Below, piece after piece: positions 42,861-63,064 of a stretch of DNA of 64,000 bases. The stretch is taken from the NCBI RefSeq assembly GCF_000483485.1, contig NZ_KI519609.1, forward strand, positions 1,145,460-1,209,459. The letters run 5' to 3'. Position 1 is the first letter of the stretch; every line of letters starts with the position of its first letter. The notes below the pieces were generated by a model, which ran no database searches, had not been told where the DNA came from, and saw only the letters and a program-made list of their open reading frames with translations. This stretch comes from Thiomicrorhabdus chilensis DSM 12352 (GTDB lineage Bacteria > Pseudomonadota > Gammaproteobacteria > Thiomicrospirales > Thiomicrospiraceae). Both the position numbers and the translations under genes were made by a program.

Positions 42861-43000
42861 CTTGCAATTATATCGCTGCGTAGTCTTAAACGGTGGTCAA
42901 ACATTATTTTATAGAATCTTTTTCCCCACCTTATCCGGGGGAACCGTTAGAATAACACAATTCAATTAATTACAATTTGATTCAGTTCACACACTACCTT

Positions 43001-46000
43001 ATGACTTCATTTGTTCACTTGCACGTTCACTCCGAATATTCCGTTATCGACAGCACCCTGGGTGTCAAACCCATGGTGGGCTTTGCAAAAGCGGATGCCC
43101 AACCCGCCTTGGCGCTGACTGACCAATCCAATCTGTTTGCTTTGGTTAAGTTCTACAGTGCGGCCATCGGCGCGGGAATCAAACCGATCATTGGCTCGGA
43201 AGTCTTGTTGGAAGACGAGGATGGCGCGGTTTTTAAGTGCGTTTTGTTGTGTCAGGATGAACAGGGCTATTTAAATCTTTCCCATTTGATTTCATTGGGT
43301 TACTTAAAAAACCAGAAGTTGTTTCAAAACAATATGGTGTCGTTAATTAAACGAGAATGGCTGGCGGAATTCAATGCCGGTTTGATTGTGCTTTCAGGTG
43401 GGCGCGAAGGGGATGTAGGCAGCGCCATTCTGGCCGAGAAGCCCAACTTGGTGGCAAGCCGCATGAGTTGGTGGCAAACGTATTTTCCACAACGCTTTTA
43501 TCTGGAATTGATGCGTACCGGCCGTCCCGGTGAAGAGGCTTATATAGTGGGCGCTGTGGAAGCAGCGCAGAGATACGATGTCCCGGTGGTGGCCACTAAT
43601 GATGTGCGCTTTGCCAAAGCCGAGGACTTTGAGGCGCATGAAGTGCGTGTCTGTATTCATGACGGTTATGTGCTGGAGGATCCCAATCGCCCTAAACGCT
43701 ATTCTGATGAACAGTATTTCAGAACGGCTGAAGAGATGGTGGCCTTATTTGACGATTTGCCTGAGGCGATTGAGAACAGCCTTGAGATCGCTAAACGTTG
43801 CTCATTGGATTTAACTTTGGGAACCTATTTCCTACCCGATTTTCCGGTTCCGGAAGGCATGACCATGGATGAGTTTTTTGTGCAGGAAAGCCACAAGGGA
43901 CTGGAAGAACGTCTGCAGTTTCTGTTTGGCCATCTGGACAGCGCAGCCTATGAGCAGAAAAAAAGCGAATACTATGACCGCATTGAGTTTGAACTCAATA
44001 TCATTTTGCAGATGGGATTTCCTGGCTACTTTCTGATCGTTGCCGACTTTATCCAGTGGGGTAAAAATCAGCAGATTCCGGTTGGGCCGGGACGTGGTTC
44101 GGGGGCGGGCTCCTTGGTGGCTTATGCATTGAAAATCACCGATCTGGATCCGATTCAATACGATTTGCTGTTCGAACGATTCCTGAACCCGGAACGTGTT
44201 TCCATGCCCGATTTCGATGTCGATTTCTGTATGGATCGACGTGACGAAGTGATTGACTATGTGTCCCGCCATTATGGGCGCGATCATGTGTCGCAGATTG
44301 TGACTTTTGGAACCATGGCCGCCAAGGCGGTGGTGCGTGACGTGGGGCGTGTTCTGGGCTTGGGTTACGGGGTGGTCGACGGCATTGCCAAATTGATTCC
44401 GAATGAACTCGGCATCAAACTCAAGGATGCGATCGAAAAAGAGGAAGATCTACAAGCCAAACGGGACAACGATGAGGATGCCGCCCAGCTTTTGGAGTTG
44501 GCCTTAAAGCTTGAGGGAACCGTGCGTAACACGGGTAAACATGCCGGAGGGGTGGTGATCGGTCCAAAACCTTTGGATCACTTTTGCCCGGTTTTATGCG
44601 AGCCCGATGGCAGCAGCGTGGTCACGCAGTTGGACAAAAACGATGTGGAAACGGCAGGCCTGGTCAAATTCGACTTTTTAGGTCTGCGAACCTTGACCAT
44701 TATCGACTGGGCTTTGCAGTCCATCAATCATAATAAACAACCAGGGGAGACCGGTTTTGTCGATATCTCCCGTATTCCGCTGGATGATGTTCAAACCTTT
44801 GATTTGATTAAAACCGGTAAGACGACCGGGGTGTTTCAGCTTGAATCCAACGGCATGCAAAACCTGATTGTCCGTCTGCGTCCCGACTGCTTTGAAGATA
44901 TTATCGCCTTGGTCGCCTTATTCCGTCCCGGACCACTGGAATCGGGCATGGTCGACAACTTCATCGCCCGTAAGCACGGTAAGGAAAAGGTCTCCTATCC
45001 GGATGCGCAATACCAGCATGATTCCTTGCAGCCGATTCTGGAGCCCACGTATGGGGTCATTCTGTATCAGGAACAGGTCATGCAGATTGCTCAGGTATTG
45101 GCCGGTTATACACTGGGGGGCGCCGACATGCTGCGCCGAGCCATGGGTAAAAAGAAACCGGAAGAGATGGCCAAACAGCGCTCTATCTTTAAGGACGGGG
45201 CGATCAGCATTGGGGTCGACGGCGACTTGGCAATGAAAATCTTTGACTTGGTGGAGAAGTTTGCCGGTTACGGTTTCAACAAATCCCACTCGGCCGCTTA
45301 TGCTTTGGTTTCCTATCAGTCGGCCTGGTTGAAAACCCACTATCCGGCTGAGTTCATGGCCGCACAGATCTCATCCGATATGGATAACACCGACAAGGTG
45401 GTGCACATGGTCAACGAATGTTATGCAATGGGCTTGGAGGTGTTGTCGCCTAATATCAATACCGGGCAAGTGCACTTTAAACCTTATGGTGAACGGACGG
45501 TCAATTATGGTCTGGGCGCAATCAAGGGGGTCGGTGAAGCTGCACTGGAAGGCATGATTGAAGAGCGTCAGGCAAACGGAGACTTTAAGGATTTGTTTGA
45601 TTTCTGCTTGCGGGTTGGAAAAAAAGTCAACCGCCGAATGCTGGAAGCCTTGATCCGTTGCGGCGCCTTGGATTGTTTGCACGACAATCGCCATGCCATG
45701 CTTGAGAGTGTTCCGATGGCTTTGAAACAGGCCGAGCAGCAACAGAAGAATGTCGATTTAGGGCAGCACGATCTGTTCGGCGAGGTGCTTTCGGTTGAGG
45801 AAACCGGTGGAACCCAATTGCTGGATGTGGCGGAGATGCCTGAAAAGTTGAAATTACGCGGTGAGAAGGAAACTCTGGGATTATATGTCAGTGGTCATCC
45901 TATCGATATTTATCGCCAGGAGCTTGATCAGCTGGTAGGGAGTTCTTTAAGCAGTCTGCGACCCGAGAAATGGCAAAAAAAATGGGCCGCCGGATTGGTG

Positions 46001-46477
46001 GTGAGTTTGCGGGCTAAAATCACCAAACGGGGTGATCGTATGGGCTTTATGGCGATTGACGATAAAACCGCGCGCCTGGAGGTCGTTATGCGTCCTGCTG
46101 TCTATGAAACGATCAAGGATCACATCAAAGAAGACATGGTGGTGATGATTTATGGCGAGGTCAGCGAAGACACCTTCAATGGCGGCATCAAGCTCGATGC
46201 CGAGCAGGTGGTGAGTCTGGCGGAAGCCCGAGTCGAAAAGGCGCGTGCCTTGAAGTTGCATGTCGATCAAAATAGCGGACACCCTCAAAAAGTCAGCGAG
46301 TTGAAGGTGCTTTTAGGGGGCTACCAATCCGAAAAAGGGTTGCCGGTGGTGATTGATTATCACAATGAATTGGCACATGCGCAGATGAAAACCCCGGAAG
46401 GCATTCATTATTTCCCGGACGATGAGCTTATTGAAGTGCTTAAGGCTCAAGGGTGGCAGCCGGAAGTGGTGCTCTAA
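43001..46477 (+). CDS. dnaE: DNA polymerase III subunit alpha
   Basis: This 1158-residue replicative polymerase of the C family has a PHP domain beginning HLHVHSEYSVIDSTLGV, the catalytic PDFDVDFCMDRRDEVIDY near 400, the HhH and OB domains toward the C-terminus (GDRMGFMAIDDKTARLEVV) and the tau-binding end. Length equals the E. coli type. I chose the ATG at 43001 (MTSFVHLHVHS). The frame is open eight codons further up but the family starts here. It carries one CAGGCCTG at 44655. Confidence 0.97.
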   Translation: MTSFVHLHVHSEYSVIDSTLGVKPMVGFAKADAQPALALTDQSNLFALVKFYSAAIGAGIKPIIGSEVLLEDEDGAVFKCVLLCQDEQGYLNLSHLISLGYLKNQKLFQNNMVSLIKREWLAEFNAGLIVLSGGREGDVGSAILAEKPNLVASRMSWWQTYFPQRFYLELMRTGRPGEEAYIVGAVEAAQRYDVPVVATNDVRFAKAEDFEAHEVRVCIHDGYVLEDPNRPKRYSDEQYFRTAEEMVALFDDLPEAIENSLEIAKRCSLDLTLGTYFLPDFPVPEGMTMDEFFVQESHKGLEERLQFLFGHLDSAAYEQKKSEYYDRIEFELNIILQMGFPGYFLIVADFIQWGKNQQIPVGPGRGSGAGSLVAYALKITDLDPIQYDLLFERFLNPERVSMPDFDVDFCMDRRDEVIDYVSRHYGRDHVSQIVTFGTMAAKAVVRDVGRVLGLGYGVVDGIAKLIPNELGIKLKDAIEKEEDLQAKRDNDEDAAQLLELALKLEGTVRNTGKHAGGVVIGPKPLDHFCPVLCEPDGSSVVTQLDKNDVETAGLVKFDFLGLRTLTIIDWALQSINHNKQPGETGFVDISRIPLDDVQTFDLIKTGKTTGVFQLESNGMQNLIVRLRPDCFEDIIALVALFRPGPLESGMVDNFIARKHGKEKVSYPDAQYQHDSLQPILEPTYGVILYQEQVMQIAQVLAGYTLGGADMLRRAMGKKKPEEMAKQRSIFKDGAISIGVDGDLAMKIFDLVEKFAGYGFNKSHSAAYALVSYQSAWLKTHYPAEFMAAQISSDMDNTDKVVHMVNECYAMGLEVLSPNINTGQVHFKPYGERTVNYGLGAIKGVGEAALEGMIEERQANGDFKDLFDFCLRVGKKVNRRMLEALIRCGALDCLHDNRHAMLESVPMALKQAEQQQKNVDLGQHDLFGEVLSVEETGGTQLLDVAEMPEKLKLRGEKETLGLYVSGHPIDIYRQELDQLVGSSLSSLRPEKWQKKWAAGLVVSLRAKITKRGDRMGFMAIDDKTARLEVVMRPAVYETIKDHIKEDMVVMIYGEVSEDTFNGGIKLDAEQVVSLAEARVEKARALKLHVDQNSGHPQKVSELKVLLGGYQSEKGLPVVIDYHNELAHAQMKTPEGIHYFPDDELIEVLKAQGWQPEVVL
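44655..44662. repeat. CAGGCCTG inside dnaE
   Basis: It is read as Ala-Gly-Leu. The minus-strand tail is CCGTTTCC. Confidence 0.6.
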
Positions 46478-46657
46478 CGTATCTGTTTCGAGCTGAGTTT
46501 CGCTTAATTTTTTACTGTCTGAGGTGCGGCTATTACTTTTGCTATTCTCCCGATTGAATTTTTTAGTCATAAAGCGCTAAATGATTGCCATAATCAATGG
46601 CATAATGCTTTGAAATTATAAGAATTTGCTAATACCAAAAAGCCGAAGGAGGTTTTT

Positions 46658-49093
46658 TTGATTTCGGCACTGTCCTCCAAGTATCCAAGTAACCATACCT
46701 TGTTAAAAACCCCCGTTGTGGTTTCGCTTGCCACTCTATTGATGCTGGTGGTTTTTAGTGTGCCCTTAATTTTGTTTTTGAACCAATACCATGCCGATTT
46801 AGTGACCGAAGATTTCATTAAGCAGGAAAGCCGGGTTCTGAATGAGCAGATCAAACAGAAGATGGATATCGGCGATACCATCGCTTTATCCTTCGCCAGA
46901 AATTCCCGCATCCGCGACGCTTTACTGTTAGAAGAACGCCTTCCGATTATTCAAGAAGTGTCTGGTGTGAACCGCCTGTTTGCCGAGAACACTCGATTTC
47001 AGAATGTGCAGCTTCACGTGATGACGGCGGATGGGCGCTCGCTGGTAAAAACCTTTAATTTGGACAGTTACAGCCAGAACCTGACGATGCATGATTTGGT
47101 CAAGAAGGCTGTGATGACCGGTAAGGCGGCATCCGGTATCAATATCGGTGGTGCGGCCAGCCATTTTCGCGTCATTAATATCCAGCCTATATATGCTTTG
47201 GATGATCCGGGTGAGGTAATCGGTTTTATTGGTGTTTCCCAAGGACTGCGTTCGATCATCGAGTCCTTTGCTACCCATAAAGTGAATTACGCTTTGTTTT
47301 CTCCTTTGCTGAACTCCAGCGAAACGTCCTCCGATCTGGGCAGCAGAACCTTTACGATTGGCAAAGCCCCTTATTTCGCCAACAATTCTCTGTCCAGTAT
47401 TCAATTTCAGGAAGCCGATGTGCTTGATGAAGTTTTGCACCTGATTGATGGGAAGTTAATTTATACCCAGCCGATTGTGGATCAGGAAAAACAACTTCTG
47501 GCGGTACATGCGGTTTCGATTCCGTTAACCACTTTCGATGAAAAAGTCTGGGAACGTAATGTCGAAGCGCTCTACATCCTGTTGGCGATATTGCTCAGTA
47601 CCTTGACGGTATCAGGCTTGCTCCTGCTGGTCATCAAGCGTAGTGTGATCAAGCCACTGTCGGTTTTTGAGGCGACCATCAGGCAGATTATTTCCAGTAA
47701 GCAGTATAAAACACCGGTTGAAATTCATACCGAGGATGAAATCGGACGGCTCTCCCACCAGTTTAATCTATTGCTGCAACAAATCGCGGAACTGATCCAC
47801 TCGTTAAAATATCAGCAAGAGGCGATTGACAGCTCCTTAATTGTCTCCAAAACCGACTTGGATGGCACCATTACCTATGTGAACCAGCAATTTGAGAAAA
47901 TCAGTGGTTACTCTGCCAAAGAGCTGGTTGGTCAGCCGCATAGTATTGTTCGTCATCCGGATATGCCTAAAGAGGTATTTGCCGACCTTTGGGGAACCAT
48001 TAAAAGCAATCGTGTCTGGAAGGGGCAGATCAAAAACTTGAGAAAAGACGGCAAACCTTATTACGTCACCACCCATATTTTACCAATCGTGAATCAGCAG
48101 GGGGTTGTGATTGAGTACATGTCCATTCGCGAAGACATCACTGAAATCGTTGAACTCAAAGAGTCGCTTGAAGCGGCCAAGGAGATGGCGGAAAAAGCCA
48201 ATCAGGCCAAATCTCAATTCCTTTCCAGTATGAGTCACGAATTGAGAACGCCGTTGAATGCGATCATAGGCTTTTCGCAATTGCTTGAGTTTTCGGATTT
48301 AACTGACAAACAGTATTCGCAGTTGGGCAATATTTCACGCAGCGGGCGACACCTGCTTCATCTGATCAACGATATTTTGGAACTTTCAAAAGTGGAGTCG
48401 GGGAGTCTGGAGATCAGTTTGGAAGAGGTGTATTTGAGCGAGTTGGTGGAAGATGCACTCAATATGGTGGAGGCTTTGGCGCGCCAACGTGGCATTTTGA
48501 TTCACTGTCCAACTAAAGAGCAATTGGATTGTTGCATTCGAGTAGATTACACCCGCATCAAGCAAGTGTTACTCAACTTTTTGAGCAATGCCATTAAATA
48601 TAACCGGGATGGCGGGCAGGTGTGGGTCTTTGCCGAAACATACAACTCGGAAGAGTGCTTGTGGATGCGTCTGCATGTCAAGGATACCGGATTCGGAATC
48701 AGTCAATCGGACCAAGAGAATCTATTTGAACCCTTTAACCGCTTGGGGCATGAGAATTCCAATATCGAAGGCACCGGGATTGGCTTGAGCATCGCCAAGG
48801 ATCTGGTCGAAAAAATGGGCGGTCATCTTGGGGTTGAAAGTACTGAGGGTGAGGGCTCTGATTTCTGGTTCAGTTTTCCGGTTTGCAAACAGGGTTCGGG
48901 TCCGGAATCGACACCAAAGACCCTGGAAGTCGATCACTCTGTGGCGTTGAAGGAAACGCACGGACCGCAAGCTGTGAAGCGTGTTTTGTATATTGAGGAC
49001 AACCCTTCAAATCGGGGGTTAATGCAAGACATTGTCTCTACCGTAGAGGGGGTGGAGTTGAGTTTGGCACCCGATGCCGAGCAGGGGCTATAG
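46658..49093 (+). CDS. Hybrid sensor histidine kinase (receiver domain cut by an amber codon)
   Basis: The 811-residue frame has membrane helices near 20-42 and 307-329, a periplasmic sensor region between them, HAMP (about 330-380), PAS (about 385-500), HisKA with phosphoacceptor His527 (SHELRTPLNAIIGF), and HATPase to about 745. A receiver starts at 773 with Glu780-Asp781. A TAG at 49091 stops translation after codon 811, and the remaining receiver sequence continues in the same frame. The start is a TTG with AAGGAGG five bases upstream. The sensor and kinase should work alone. I do not know the signal. Confidence 0.92.
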   Translation: MISALSSKYPSNHTLLKTPVVVSLATLLMLVVFSVPLILFLNQYHADLVTEDFIKQESRVLNEQIKQKMDIGDTIALSFARNSRIRDALLLEERLPIIQEVSGVNRLFAENTRFQNVQLHVMTADGRSLVKTFNLDSYSQNLTMHDLVKKAVMTGKAASGINIGGAASHFRVINIQPIYALDDPGEVIGFIGVSQGLRSIIESFATHKVNYALFSPLLNSSETSSDLGSRTFTIGKAPYFANNSLSSIQFQEADVLDEVLHLIDGKLIYTQPIVDQEKQLLAVHAVSIPLTTFDEKVWERNVEALYILLAILLSTLTVSGLLLLVIKRSVIKPLSVFEATIRQIISSKQYKTPVEIHTEDEIGRLSHQFNLLLQQIAELIHSLKYQQEAIDSSLIVSKTDLDGTITYVNQQFEKISGYSAKELVGQPHSIVRHPDMPKEVFADLWGTIKSNRVWKGQIKNLRKDGKPYYVTTHILPIVNQQGVVIEYMSIREDITEIVELKESLEAAKEMAEKANQAKSQFLSSMSHELRTPLNAIIGFSQLLEFSDLTDKQYSQLGNISRSGRHLLHLINDILELSKVESGSLEISLEEVYLSELVEDALNMVEALARQRGILIHCPTKEQLDCCIRVDYTRIKQVLLNFLSNAIKYNRDGGQVWVFAETYNSEECLWMRLHVKDTGFGISQSDQENLFEPFNRLGHENSNIEGTGIGLSIAKDLVEKMGGHLGVESTEGEGSDFWFSFPVCKQGSGPESTPKTLEVDHSVALKETHGPQAVKRVLYIEDNPSNRGLMQDIVSTVEGVELSLAPDAEQGL

Positions 49094-49342
49094 ATGGCTG
49101 AAACGCTTTTGCCAGACGTGATGTTTATCGACATCAATTTACCGGGTATGAATGGTGACGAATTATTGCCGATCTTAAAGCGTTCGGTCGCGTTGCAGAA
49201 AAAGGGAACGGTTTTTTATGCGCTGACGGCCAATGCCATGATGCTGGATGTTGAGAGAGGGAAACGGGTAGGGTTTGATGATTATCTGACCAAGCCGATC
49301 AACATTAAAGAGATCATTGCCATTTTGGCCGGTTCTCGTTGA
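49094..49342 (+). pseudogene. Severed receiver-domain remainder of the hybrid kinase
   Basis: The 82-codon frame follows the TAG with no intervening base and in the same reading frame. It supplies the phosphoacceptor (MFIDINLPGMNG, codon 825 counted from the kinase start), the LTANAM switch region and the TKPI lysine. It begins ATG GCT GAA, so reinitiation is possible but no ribosome-binding site precedes it. I read it as the rest of one hybrid kinase gene of about 894 codons split by a nonsense codon or a sequencing error. Confidence 0.8.
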
Positions 49343-49348
49343 TGTGAG

Positions 49349-49379
49349 CCTAAAATGGACAGGCCTGGCCGTTTTTAGG
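49349..49379. terminator. Imperfect hairpin with CAGGCCTG between two convergent stops
   Basis: CCTAAAA (49349-49355) pairs with TTTTAGG (49373-49379), with CAGGCCTG at 49360-49367 inside. It overlaps the stop codon of thpR. Confidence 0.5.
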
Positions 49380-49968
49380 ATGGATTGATGACACCGTCAT
49401 CATAGCGTTCCAGCCATTTGTGTTGCAATGCCTTATAGACAGGAGCAGCGTCGGTCAATTGGCTTTCATAAAGCGTCAGATGATCAACGGTCAGCCACAG
49501 ATCTTGAAGGTGTTTCAGTTCGTCCGGGATTTGAATGCGATCGGCCTCAAGTTGTTTGGGGATTCGTCCCAAGCTGATATGGGGGCGAAATGCCTGTTTG
49601 GATGTGTGAAGGCCAAACGCTTTCAGCTGGGACTCTATTTCCCGCACCAGGTATTGAAGCAATAGTGTTGAATCCAGGGATGCCACTAGGCTATGAGGGT
49701 GTGTGGCGCTTGGAAAAGGGCGAATCGCGAGAATTTCGGCCTCGAAATGACTCATGCCTTCAGAGAACCAGAGTGGCATCGATTGGGCGACCGCTTTTAC
49801 CTTGTCGGCATCCAGCTTTCCACCCAGAAAATGCAGGGTCAGATGGTAGTTTTCAGGTGGAAACCAGATGATTTGTTGCCCCCAGTCAGTCTGGCGAAGC
49901 TGATCAACCTGTTGGCTTAGCACCTGTGTGGTCTGTTGGTCAACGGGAAGAGCGATAAAGGCGCGCAT
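49375..49968 (-). CDS. thpR: RNA 2',3'-cyclic phosphodiesterase (ThpR/LigT)
   Basis: The 197-residue 2H phosphoesterase has the two HxTx-type motifs HLTLHFLG near residue 42 and HISLGRI near 130. It opens 2',3'-cyclic phosphates on RNA and can act as a ligase in vitro. I chose MRAFIALPV (ATG 49968), which is the family's start. An upstream extension of 20 codons is not supported. It is convergent with the kinase gene. Confidence 0.92.
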   Translation of the reverse strand: MRAFIALPVDQQTTQVLSQQVDQLRQTDWGQQIIWFPPENYHLTLHFLGGKLDADKVKAVAQSMPLWFSEGMSHFEAEILAIRPFPSATHPHSLVASLDSTLLLQYLVREIESQLKAFGLHTSKQAFRPHISLGRIPKQLEADRIQIPDELKHLQDLWLTVDHLTLYESQLTDAAPVYKALQHKWLERYDDGVINPS

Positions 49969-50104
49969 GATTTCAATCCTTGGATAAGTGAGATCTTGCA
50001 AGATTGCGATAAACCAGTGGTTCAACAATATTGACCTCAGTCTGTTATAAGGTCAAATTATTTAGCATTGTAAATAGGGCCTTGAATTGTGTTAAAAGAC
50101 GGCA

Positions 50105-61631: not shown

Positions 61632-61665
61632 AAGAGTACATTTGATTAATCATCTAGACAAAATT

Positions 61666-61707
61666 GCGTTCAGCAGAATCGGCAGGCCTGTCGATTCTGC
61701 TGAACGC
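61666..61707 (+). repeat. Perfect 16-bp hairpin centred on GCAGGCCTGT between infB and rbfA
   Basis: GCGTTCAGCAGAATCG pairs perfectly with CGATTCTGCTGAACGC around GCAGGCCTGT (61682-61691). The octamer can extend the stem to a GGCC tetraloop. No T-run follows, so it is not an efficient terminator as drawn. Confidence 0.8.
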
Positions 61708-61714
61708 CAGTAAA

Positions 61715-61740
61715 GAAAATGCTCCAACTGGAGCATTTTC
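61715..61740 (+). terminator. Second hairpin between infB and rbfA
   Basis: GAAAATGCTCC and GGAGCATTTTC pair perfectly over 11 bases around AACT. TTTTC ends the stem and GCTTT follows, so it is a weak terminator or an mRNA-processing site in the operon. Confidence 0.6.
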
Positions 61741-61762
61741 GCTTTATGAGAATTCACAAAAT

Positions 61763-62125
61763 ATGAATCAACAGAACTTTAGCCGTCCGACTCGGGTGGC
61801 GCAAGAAATCAAGAAAACCCTGGCGGATTTGCTGTTAAGAGAAGCAAAAGACCCACGTTTTCACAAAATCAATTTAACCGATTGCAAAATTTCCAAGGAT
61901 TTGGCCGTGGCCAAGGTGCATTTTGCCTTGATCGGACACAATCAGGACGATCCGGAAGTGGCCAATGTGTTGCAGGCTCTGGACAAAGCTAAAGGATATT
62001 TAAGAAGTGAACTCGGTCGTCGTTTGAAATTACGTATCGTGCCGGACATTCGTTTCTATTATGATTCCGCTCCTGAGCACGCCGCTTATATCGAGGACTT
62101 GATTAATAAGGCTTTGAATAAGTAA
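61763..62125 (+). CDS. rbfA: Ribosome-binding factor A
   Basis: This 120-residue KH-like protein is needed for 16S rRNA 5' maturation and growth in the cold. FSRPTRVAQEIKKTLADLL near the start, the DLAVAKVHFALIG block and the IRFYYDSAPEHAAYIEDLI end are conserved. I chose the ATG at 61763. The frame continues upstream but only through the two hairpins. No strong ribosome-binding site is visible. It abuts truB. Confidence 0.95.
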   Translation: MNQQNFSRPTRVAQEIKKTLADLLLREAKDPRFHKINLTDCKISKDLAVAKVHFALIGHNQDDPEVANVLQALDKAKGYLRSELGRRLKLRIVPDIRFYYDSAPEHAAYIEDLINKALNK

Positions 62126-63064
62126 ATGGCTCAGTACAGACGACCGCCGCGCGAGAATATCAACGGCATAGTTTTGCTCAACAAGCCGGTTGGAGTTTCT
62201 TCCAACGGTATCCTGCAACAGGTGATGCGGATTTTTAACGCCAAAAAGGGCGGGCACACCGGCGCTTTGGATCCGTTTGCTACAGGATTGCTGCCTATCT
62301 GTTTGGGGGAAGCCACCAAGGTGTCAGGCTTGCTTTTGGATTCCGACAAACGCTACACGGCCACCTTGAAGTTGGGTGAACAGAGCGATACCGGGGACAC
62401 CGAAGGCGAGATCATCCAGCTTCTGCCGGTGCCTGAATTGAATGAGGCGGTTATCGAAGCCGTTTTTGAGCAGTTCAGAGGTGAGATAGAACAGGTTCCG
62501 CCGATGTATTCTGCACTCAAACATCAGGGCAAACCCTTGTATTACTATGCGCGAAAAGGCATTGAAATTGACAGGCCTGCCCGTCCTATCCGCATCTTGG
62601 CTTTAGATTTGATCGGTTTTTCAGAAAATGAAATCGTGTTTGACGTTTTGTGTTCCAAGGGTACCTATGTGCGTACCTTGGGTGAAGATATTGCCAAAGC
62701 CCTGGGAACAGTCGGGCACTTGACCGCGTTGCACCGCACCCAGACCGGGAGTTTGCACGGCGACCAGATGTTGACCCTGGAAGAGATCGAGGCACGCAAG
62801 CTTGAGTGCCTGCAACCGTTGGATATTGCGTTGCAGCACTTACAGCGTATTGATTTGGATGCAGAGCAGGCGGCTTTGATCAAGCAGGGGCAAAAGCTGC
62901 GCCTGGAACAGCCAAAAACCGATTTGGTGCGTTTTTACGACGATCAGGGTGTTTTTTTTGCGGTGGGTGAATGGCAAGTTGAAAAGCAGCTTTTAAAACC
63001 TAAGCGGGTGTTTAATTTGCCTTCCGGTCCTAATACGAACGCTCCCTCGGGTTCTAAGGCTTGA
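62126..63064 (+). CDS. truB: tRNA pseudouridine synthase TruB
   Basis: This 312-residue enzyme makes pseudouridine 55 in tRNAs. The catalytic aspartate is in GHTGALDPFATGLLP near residue 46, followed by YTATLKLGEQSDTGDTEG and the C-terminal PUA-like part. It starts directly after the rbfA stop. In most gammaproteobacteria rpsO follows truB. Here a rhodanese/methyltransferase gene does. Confidence 0.97.
   Translation: MAQYRRPPRENINGIVLLNKPVGVSSNGILQQVMRIFNAKKGGHTGALDPFATGLLPICLGEATKVSGLLLDSDKRYTATLKLGEQSDTGDTEGEIIQLLPVPELNEAVIEAVFEQFRGEIEQVPPMYSALKHQGKPLYYYARKGIEIDRPARPIRILALDLIGFSENEIVFDVLCSKGTYVRTLGEDIAKALGTVGHLTALHRTQTGSLHGDQMLTLEEIEARKLECLQPLDIALQHLQRIDLDAEQAALIKQGQKLRLEQPKTDLVRFYDDQGVFFAVGEWQVEKQLLKPKRVFNLPSGPNTNAPSGSKA
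62572..62579. repeat. CAGGCCTG inside truB
   Basis: It is read Arg-Pro. The minus-strand tail TCAATTTC fits the T-rich form. Confidence 0.6.

Follow-up and report, generated by a model that had tools for sequence, protein, structure and literature searches.

The kinase gene at 46658-49342 of the window (the whole stretch of 64,000 nucleotides of Thiomicrorhabdus chilensis DSM 12352 DNA that was analysed) carries an in-frame amber codon. The gene probably encodes a hybrid histidine kinase whose C-terminal receiver was removed by a very recent nonsense change in a single codon, which left a kinase of 811 residues. If such a kinase functions at all, it probably does so without a receiver, and the interruption has the look of a commonplace damaged gene end, not a new mechanism. 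If the TAG is real, the gene would be a natural single-codon conversion of a hybrid kinase to a simple kinase, seen near its start, with the same receiver already decayed in other lineages. It would also offer a compact case in which to study under what conditions a hybrid kinase can dispense with its receiver. The lesion by itself is of a common kind; a literature search found no reports on a hybrid histidine kinase with a premature stop codon, a nonsense mutation or a degenerate receiver domain.

Composition of the interrupted frame

The frame begins at a TTG codon at 46658, preceded by strong Shine-Dalgarno pairing (-12.4 kcal/mol). It meets the TAG at 49091-49093 as codon 812, carries the phosphoacceptor Asp at codon 825, and continues for 82 further in-frame codons up to the TGA at 49340-49342; the coordinates, the frame and the codon numbers given for the TAG and the phosphoacceptor in the initial annotation were right. 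As translated, the histidine kinase (46658-49093, forward strand, 811 aa) has an N-terminal sensor with hydrophobic segments, as judged by eye, followed by HAMP, PAS, HisKA and HATPase_c domains and a receiver stub of 38 residues. The stub (48977-49090, forward strand) holds the first two strands, the helix between them and the first half of helix 2, with the acidic pair E780 and D781. The rest of the receiver lies in the same frame and on the same strand at 49094-49342, with an ATG immediately after the TAG, the residues D825, T857 and K879, and the TGA as its end.

In the protein read through the TAG, Pfam models matched HisKA at 517-582 and HATPase_c at 630-742, the transmitter of a hybrid histidine kinase, and Response_reg at 776-890 (65.5 bits), besides HAMP and PAS. 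The Response_reg match spans the TAG, in agreement with the earlier view that both halves belong to one REC domain. When the 811-residue product was searched alone, Response_reg had no match at E<=0.001; a receiver, as expected in the same translated chain of a hybrid kinase, was found only on reading through. The 82-residue piece 3' of the TAG, searched alone, matched positions 40-110 of the 111 positions of Response_reg (48.6 bits, E 1e-12), so the frame downstream of the TAG is not a matter of chance. All the key phosphotransfer residues, whose loss defines a pseudo-receiver, were present in frame. No match to an Hpt domain was seen at E<=0.001 in the read-through protein.

An AlphaFold run on the read-through receiver (123 residues), together with seven other receivers, gave a model with a mean pLDDT of 90.4 in which strands and helices alternate. 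The TAG residue is residue 41 of the 123 in this model and falls within helix 36-46, i.e. helix 2. The solved relatives that scored best by sequence were receiver domains, from response regulators as well as from kinases.

Receiver matches in the genome of the window number 27, and that of the kinase, cut at 49091-49093, is the sole one with an internal stop. Four complete relatives have 163 receiver matches in total, and none of those listed had one. In-frame stops did occur within matches to other signalling genes of relatives, for example to the GGDEF or REC-HD queries in G018 and G061, and interrupted signalling genes are not unique to the window. As a separate observation, a histidine-kinase match at G036:C1:337050-337802 has one TAA inside and is possibly another interrupted kinase in a relative.

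Among the 45 non-overlapping ORFs of at least 150 aa in the window, seven have TAG as their stop; in the six besides the kinase the frame stays open for 1-23 codons past it, compared to 82 for the kinase. Open stretches after TAA in the window reach 124, 312 and 344 codons, and the 312-codon stretch after 62125 consists of two consecutive genes in one frame. Since open frames follow other stops too, the evidence is the domain match and not the open frame itself. At 61664-63064 two successive genes, presumably rbfA-like and truB-like by resemblance, share one frame with a TAA directly followed by an ATG; a stop next to an ATG is thus also seen between normal genes of the window. Scans of the window found no Rfam match and no tRNA (ARAGORN), and the promoter and terminator scan, with 2 and 3 matches compared to 4.5 and 3.7 expected, carried no information.

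Counterparts and the age of the stop

The sensor part of the kinase was used as the query against 62 genomes of the family, 58 of which had a match, the window's own included. The 11 best matches besides the window (E from 5.7e-147 to 8.8e-49) were aligned over the whole length. The next match, G015 (1.2e-33), was excluded as a probable paralogue, and so were all weaker matches and the second hits of genomes already represented. Identity to the window kinase was 64% for G018 and about 39-45% for G009, G061, G079, G076, G032, G003, G078, G062, G024 and G036. A maximum likelihood tree of the kinase part grouped the window with G018 (100/100) and then with G061 (100/99), with one open fork. Searched as DNA, the C-terminal 443 bases had a match in 3 of the 58 genomes, the window's own among them, and the named genome collection yielded only five distant kinases (Chloroflexi, Bacteroidales, Nodularia, Chlorobiota and Paenisporosarcina).

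Where the window has the TAG, every one of the 11 aligned counterparts carries a sense codon, the residues being A, E, T, D, K, D, T, D, A, E and D. The initial annotation had called for this comparison with relatives, and its outcome fits a recent lesion; the usual residue at the site, expected there to be charged, is charged in seven counterparts (E in two, D in four, K in one), while four have A or T, and the closest counterpart has A. A stop shared across species, which would have spoken against a recent mutation, was seen in 0 of the 11 counterparts, and a conserved programmed recoding was rejected on the same count.

A Response_reg match above the cut-off was observed in 6 of the 11 counterparts (G018, G009, G024, G061, G078 and G079). 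Of these, G078 was excluded from the set of five intact receivers since its receiver, at 38.6 bits, has lost the conserved Thr/Ser. In the columns that are invariant among the five intact counterparts (G018, G009, G024, G061 and G079) the window keeps 12 of 12 before the TAG and 24 of 24 after it. The pooled relative-rate comparison with G018 over the receiver after the TAG gave 5 positions kept by the window and 7 kept by G018 (p 0.77). Counts with single outgroups ran from 3:10 to 10:3 (p 0.09 each), in both directions, over few sites, where a mild acceleration could be missed. Before the TAG the receiver has 63% amino acid identity to G018, after it 60%, and the codon-position differences were alike on the two sides: 0.21 before and 0.24 after at second positions, 0.53 and 0.57 at third positions.

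In a neutral simulation the mean fraction of residues kept was 0.90 at 0.05 changes per site and 0.80 at 0.1. By simple powers, calculated by hand, the chance of keeping 24 of 24 columns in a region long free of constraint would be about 0.08 and 0.005, respectively. The count of stops is a weak clock, with a simulated probability of no stop of 0.11 at 0.5 changes per site. Silent sites were saturated relative to G018 (dS undefined in five of six regions and 2.45 in one), therefore no usable dN/dS could be derived. The intact invariant columns and the relative-rate test disfavour an old pseudogene tail. Judged from these comparisons, the lesion would be young on the scale of the split between the window and G018.

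With 24 of 24 invariant columns kept and no faster evolution, the stop either arose very recently or is a base-call error, a bypass being the least likely of the options; the same full constraint after the TAG is expected from a sequencing error, from a bypassed stop and from a fragment still in use. The earlier proposal of a nonsense mutation or a sequencing error stands, given the sense codons in all 11 counterparts and the undiminished constraint after the TAG. The TAG could be a sequencing error rather than a mutation: a base-call or assembly error, in which case the organism would have a sense codon there and a normal hybrid kinase, is possible, if rather unlikely. A base-call error would agree with the untouched appearance of everything after the TAG, with the isolation of the one affected codon and with the open frame in the 11 counterparts. 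On the other side, the genome is near-closed, with two contigs (completeness 99.99), and three syntenic neighbours that cover 99-100% of the matched G018 ORFs give no sign of poor assembly.

Translation of the stop and of the codon after it

The Rfam model search scored 150 of 174 first-look tRNA candidates and found 43 tRNA genes. ARAGORN, run on loci covering all 43, detected no CUA anticodon; the sole 'tag' anticodon belonged to a leucine tRNA that reads CUA. A gene for release factor 1 is present (547.5 bits compared to a cut-off of 423.25). A suppressor tRNA or a reassigned UAG was accordingly disfavoured, as no UAG-reading tRNA is among those found and the release factor is there, and the earlier option of a suppressed amber codon drew no support. 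We regard it as very unlikely that some full-length hybrid kinase is made by read-through or suppression of the TAG: the undiminished constraint past the TAG would suit it, whereas the tRNA complement, the release factor and the lack of a TAG in every counterpart speak against it. A low level of near-cognate misreading of the TAG is conceivable.

The ATG directly after the TAG has Shine-Dalgarno pairing of -5.7 kcal/mol and ranks 16th among 84 in-frame start-like codons. In 0 of the 11 counterparts does Met follow the site directly. These two results left the suggested separate receiver fragment, started from this ATG, without support. Such a fragment was described as lacking the first strand and helix, and it does lack them, but in the AlphaFold model strand 2 and half of helix 2 would be missing as well. 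Termination at the TAG followed by reinitiation at the ATG, with the 82-residue fragment completing or regulating the receiver stub in trans as a split receiver, is highly improbable. The ATG and the intact frame right after the TAG would permit it, as would the match of the fragment alone to Response_reg; the pairing rank, the lack of a conserved Met and the absence from the fragment of the first two strands and the first one and a half helices argue against it. Still less likely is a genuine coupled stop-start at TAG-ATG from which two receiver chains would reassemble, the kinase contributing strand 1 through helix 2 and a chain of 82 residues everything from strand 3 to the last helix, so that the receiver would become dose-controlled instead of intramolecular. 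Suppression is not favoured, and nor is a second start built for the purpose.

Receiver decay, gene neighbourhood and the likely regulator

The loss of the receiver by a recent nonsense change would have parallels of another kind in the family. The same receiver has decayed in 5 of the 11 counterparts (G032, G003, G036, G062 and G076). Response_reg had no match at E<=1 in G032, G003, G036 and G062, and the G076 receiver scored 13.2 bits compared to a cut-off of 30.2. The acidic pair was lost and the phosphoacceptor Asp kept in G003, G032 and G076, while the phosphoacceptor Asp was lost in G036 and G062. The residues lost and the places in the tree suggest at least two separate decays of the receiver.

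A REC-HD regulator gene lies directly upstream of the kinase in 9 of the 11 counterparts, which are all five with a decayed receiver and four with a receiver above the cut-off (G009, G024, G079 and G078). With every decayed copy beside a REC-HD gene, kinases of this family evidently survive the loss of their own receiver, as far as the sequences tell, next to a separate regulator. The kinases of the window, G018 and G061 have no visible REC-HD neighbour, with the 898-aa gene adjoining the G061 kinase outside the Pfam scan. Since the sister receivers of the window's own subclade, those of G018 and G061, are intact and have no REC-HD gene seen beside the kinase, the receiver may matter more in this subclade than in other lineages.

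The gene upstream of the kinase in the window (42977-46477, forward strand, 1166 aa), which we take to be dnaE-like, follows the gene order of the nearest counterpart, G018, minus one extra G018 gene. A gap of 180 bases (46478-46657, forward strand) separates it from the kinase; in G018 a PAS-GGDEF gene (L100:8845-9723) stands in this place between the dnaE-like gene and the kinase. The convergent downstream neighbour (49375-50028, reverse strand, 217 aa), presumably 2'-5' RNA ligase-like, is conserved in G018.

The best match of the window's genome to the G009 regulator is G000:C1:449722-450744 (61% identical), a REC-HD gene directly after another PAS hybrid kinase, a paralogue whose receiver is intact; the pair occupies about 447.7-450.8 kb of G000:C1 (L111:2742-5754). 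We take the REC-HD domains here to be of the HD-GYP type, by motif. We infer that translation in vivo would stop at the TAG and give a kinase of 811 residues whose short receiver stub is unfolded or degraded, with loss of receiver control, and that kinase activity would be kept, the protein with its intact transmitter probably still autophosphorylating. The phosphate would then pass straight to a separate response regulator, as must be the case in the counterparts with a decayed receiver. Because of the gene neighbourhood in the counterparts, the likeliest target would be the REC-HD regulator at 449722-450744, probably a c-di-GMP phosphodiesterase if the HD-GYP motif is a guide. Four Hpt matches were found in the window's genome, and these could have served a relay via the receiver.

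The same paralogue bears on the possibility that the whole kinase is an early pseudogene, redundant with the paralogue beside the REC-HD gene, with the TAG as the first of further lesions. This possibility overlaps with a recent loss of the receiver alone, and we consider it unlikely. A paralogous kinase with its receiver intact directly before the REC-HD gene and the lack of a regulator adjoining the window kinase would both agree with redundancy. However, the kinase part (1-745) has no other stop and showed no acceleration relative to G018 (44 positions kept by the window compared to 36, pooled, p 0.43); outgroup G079 alone gave 58 compared to 35 (p 0.02), favouring the window.

In Xanthomonas, RpfC combines a kinase with a receiver, and RpfG is a REC domain fused to HD-GYP, a c-di-GMP phosphodiesterase (excerpts of PMC3749722). 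The arrangement in the nine counterparts, a hybrid kinase gene beside a REC-HD regulator, resembles this pair; RpfC as described there has an Hpt domain, unlike the window kinase, in which no Hpt match was found (PMC3749722). In addition, the receiver of the window kinase is cut and its regulator does not adjoin it.

VirA of Agrobacterium is a hybrid kinase whose receiver modulates signalling to a separate regulator, and removal of this receiver altered input control (PMC4705274). The receiver deletion was null when expressed from the native plasmid and was corrected by constitutive expression, which means that loss of a receiver can also abolish signalling (PMC4705274). By analogy, the removal of a receiver may change signalling in more than one way, although VirA has a different regulator and its receiver was removed on purpose (PMC4705274).

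Pseudo-receivers such as those of ShkA and CikA are receiver-like domains of hybrid kinases without the phosphotransfer residues, according to excerpts of PMC12632262; the decayed receivers in G032, G003, G076, G036 and G062 can be compared to them. The window's receiver frame, by contrast, keeps all the key residues and is interrupted instead. A truncated C-terminal pseudo-receiver is described in the same excerpts for yeast Rim15p, where, unlike in the window kinase, the lesion is a frameshift and the protein is fungal (PMC12632262).

As a minor observation, the PAS-GGDEF query had 48 matches (E<=0.001) in the 2.44-Mb genome of the window, which is apparently rich in signalling proteins of the c-di-GMP type.
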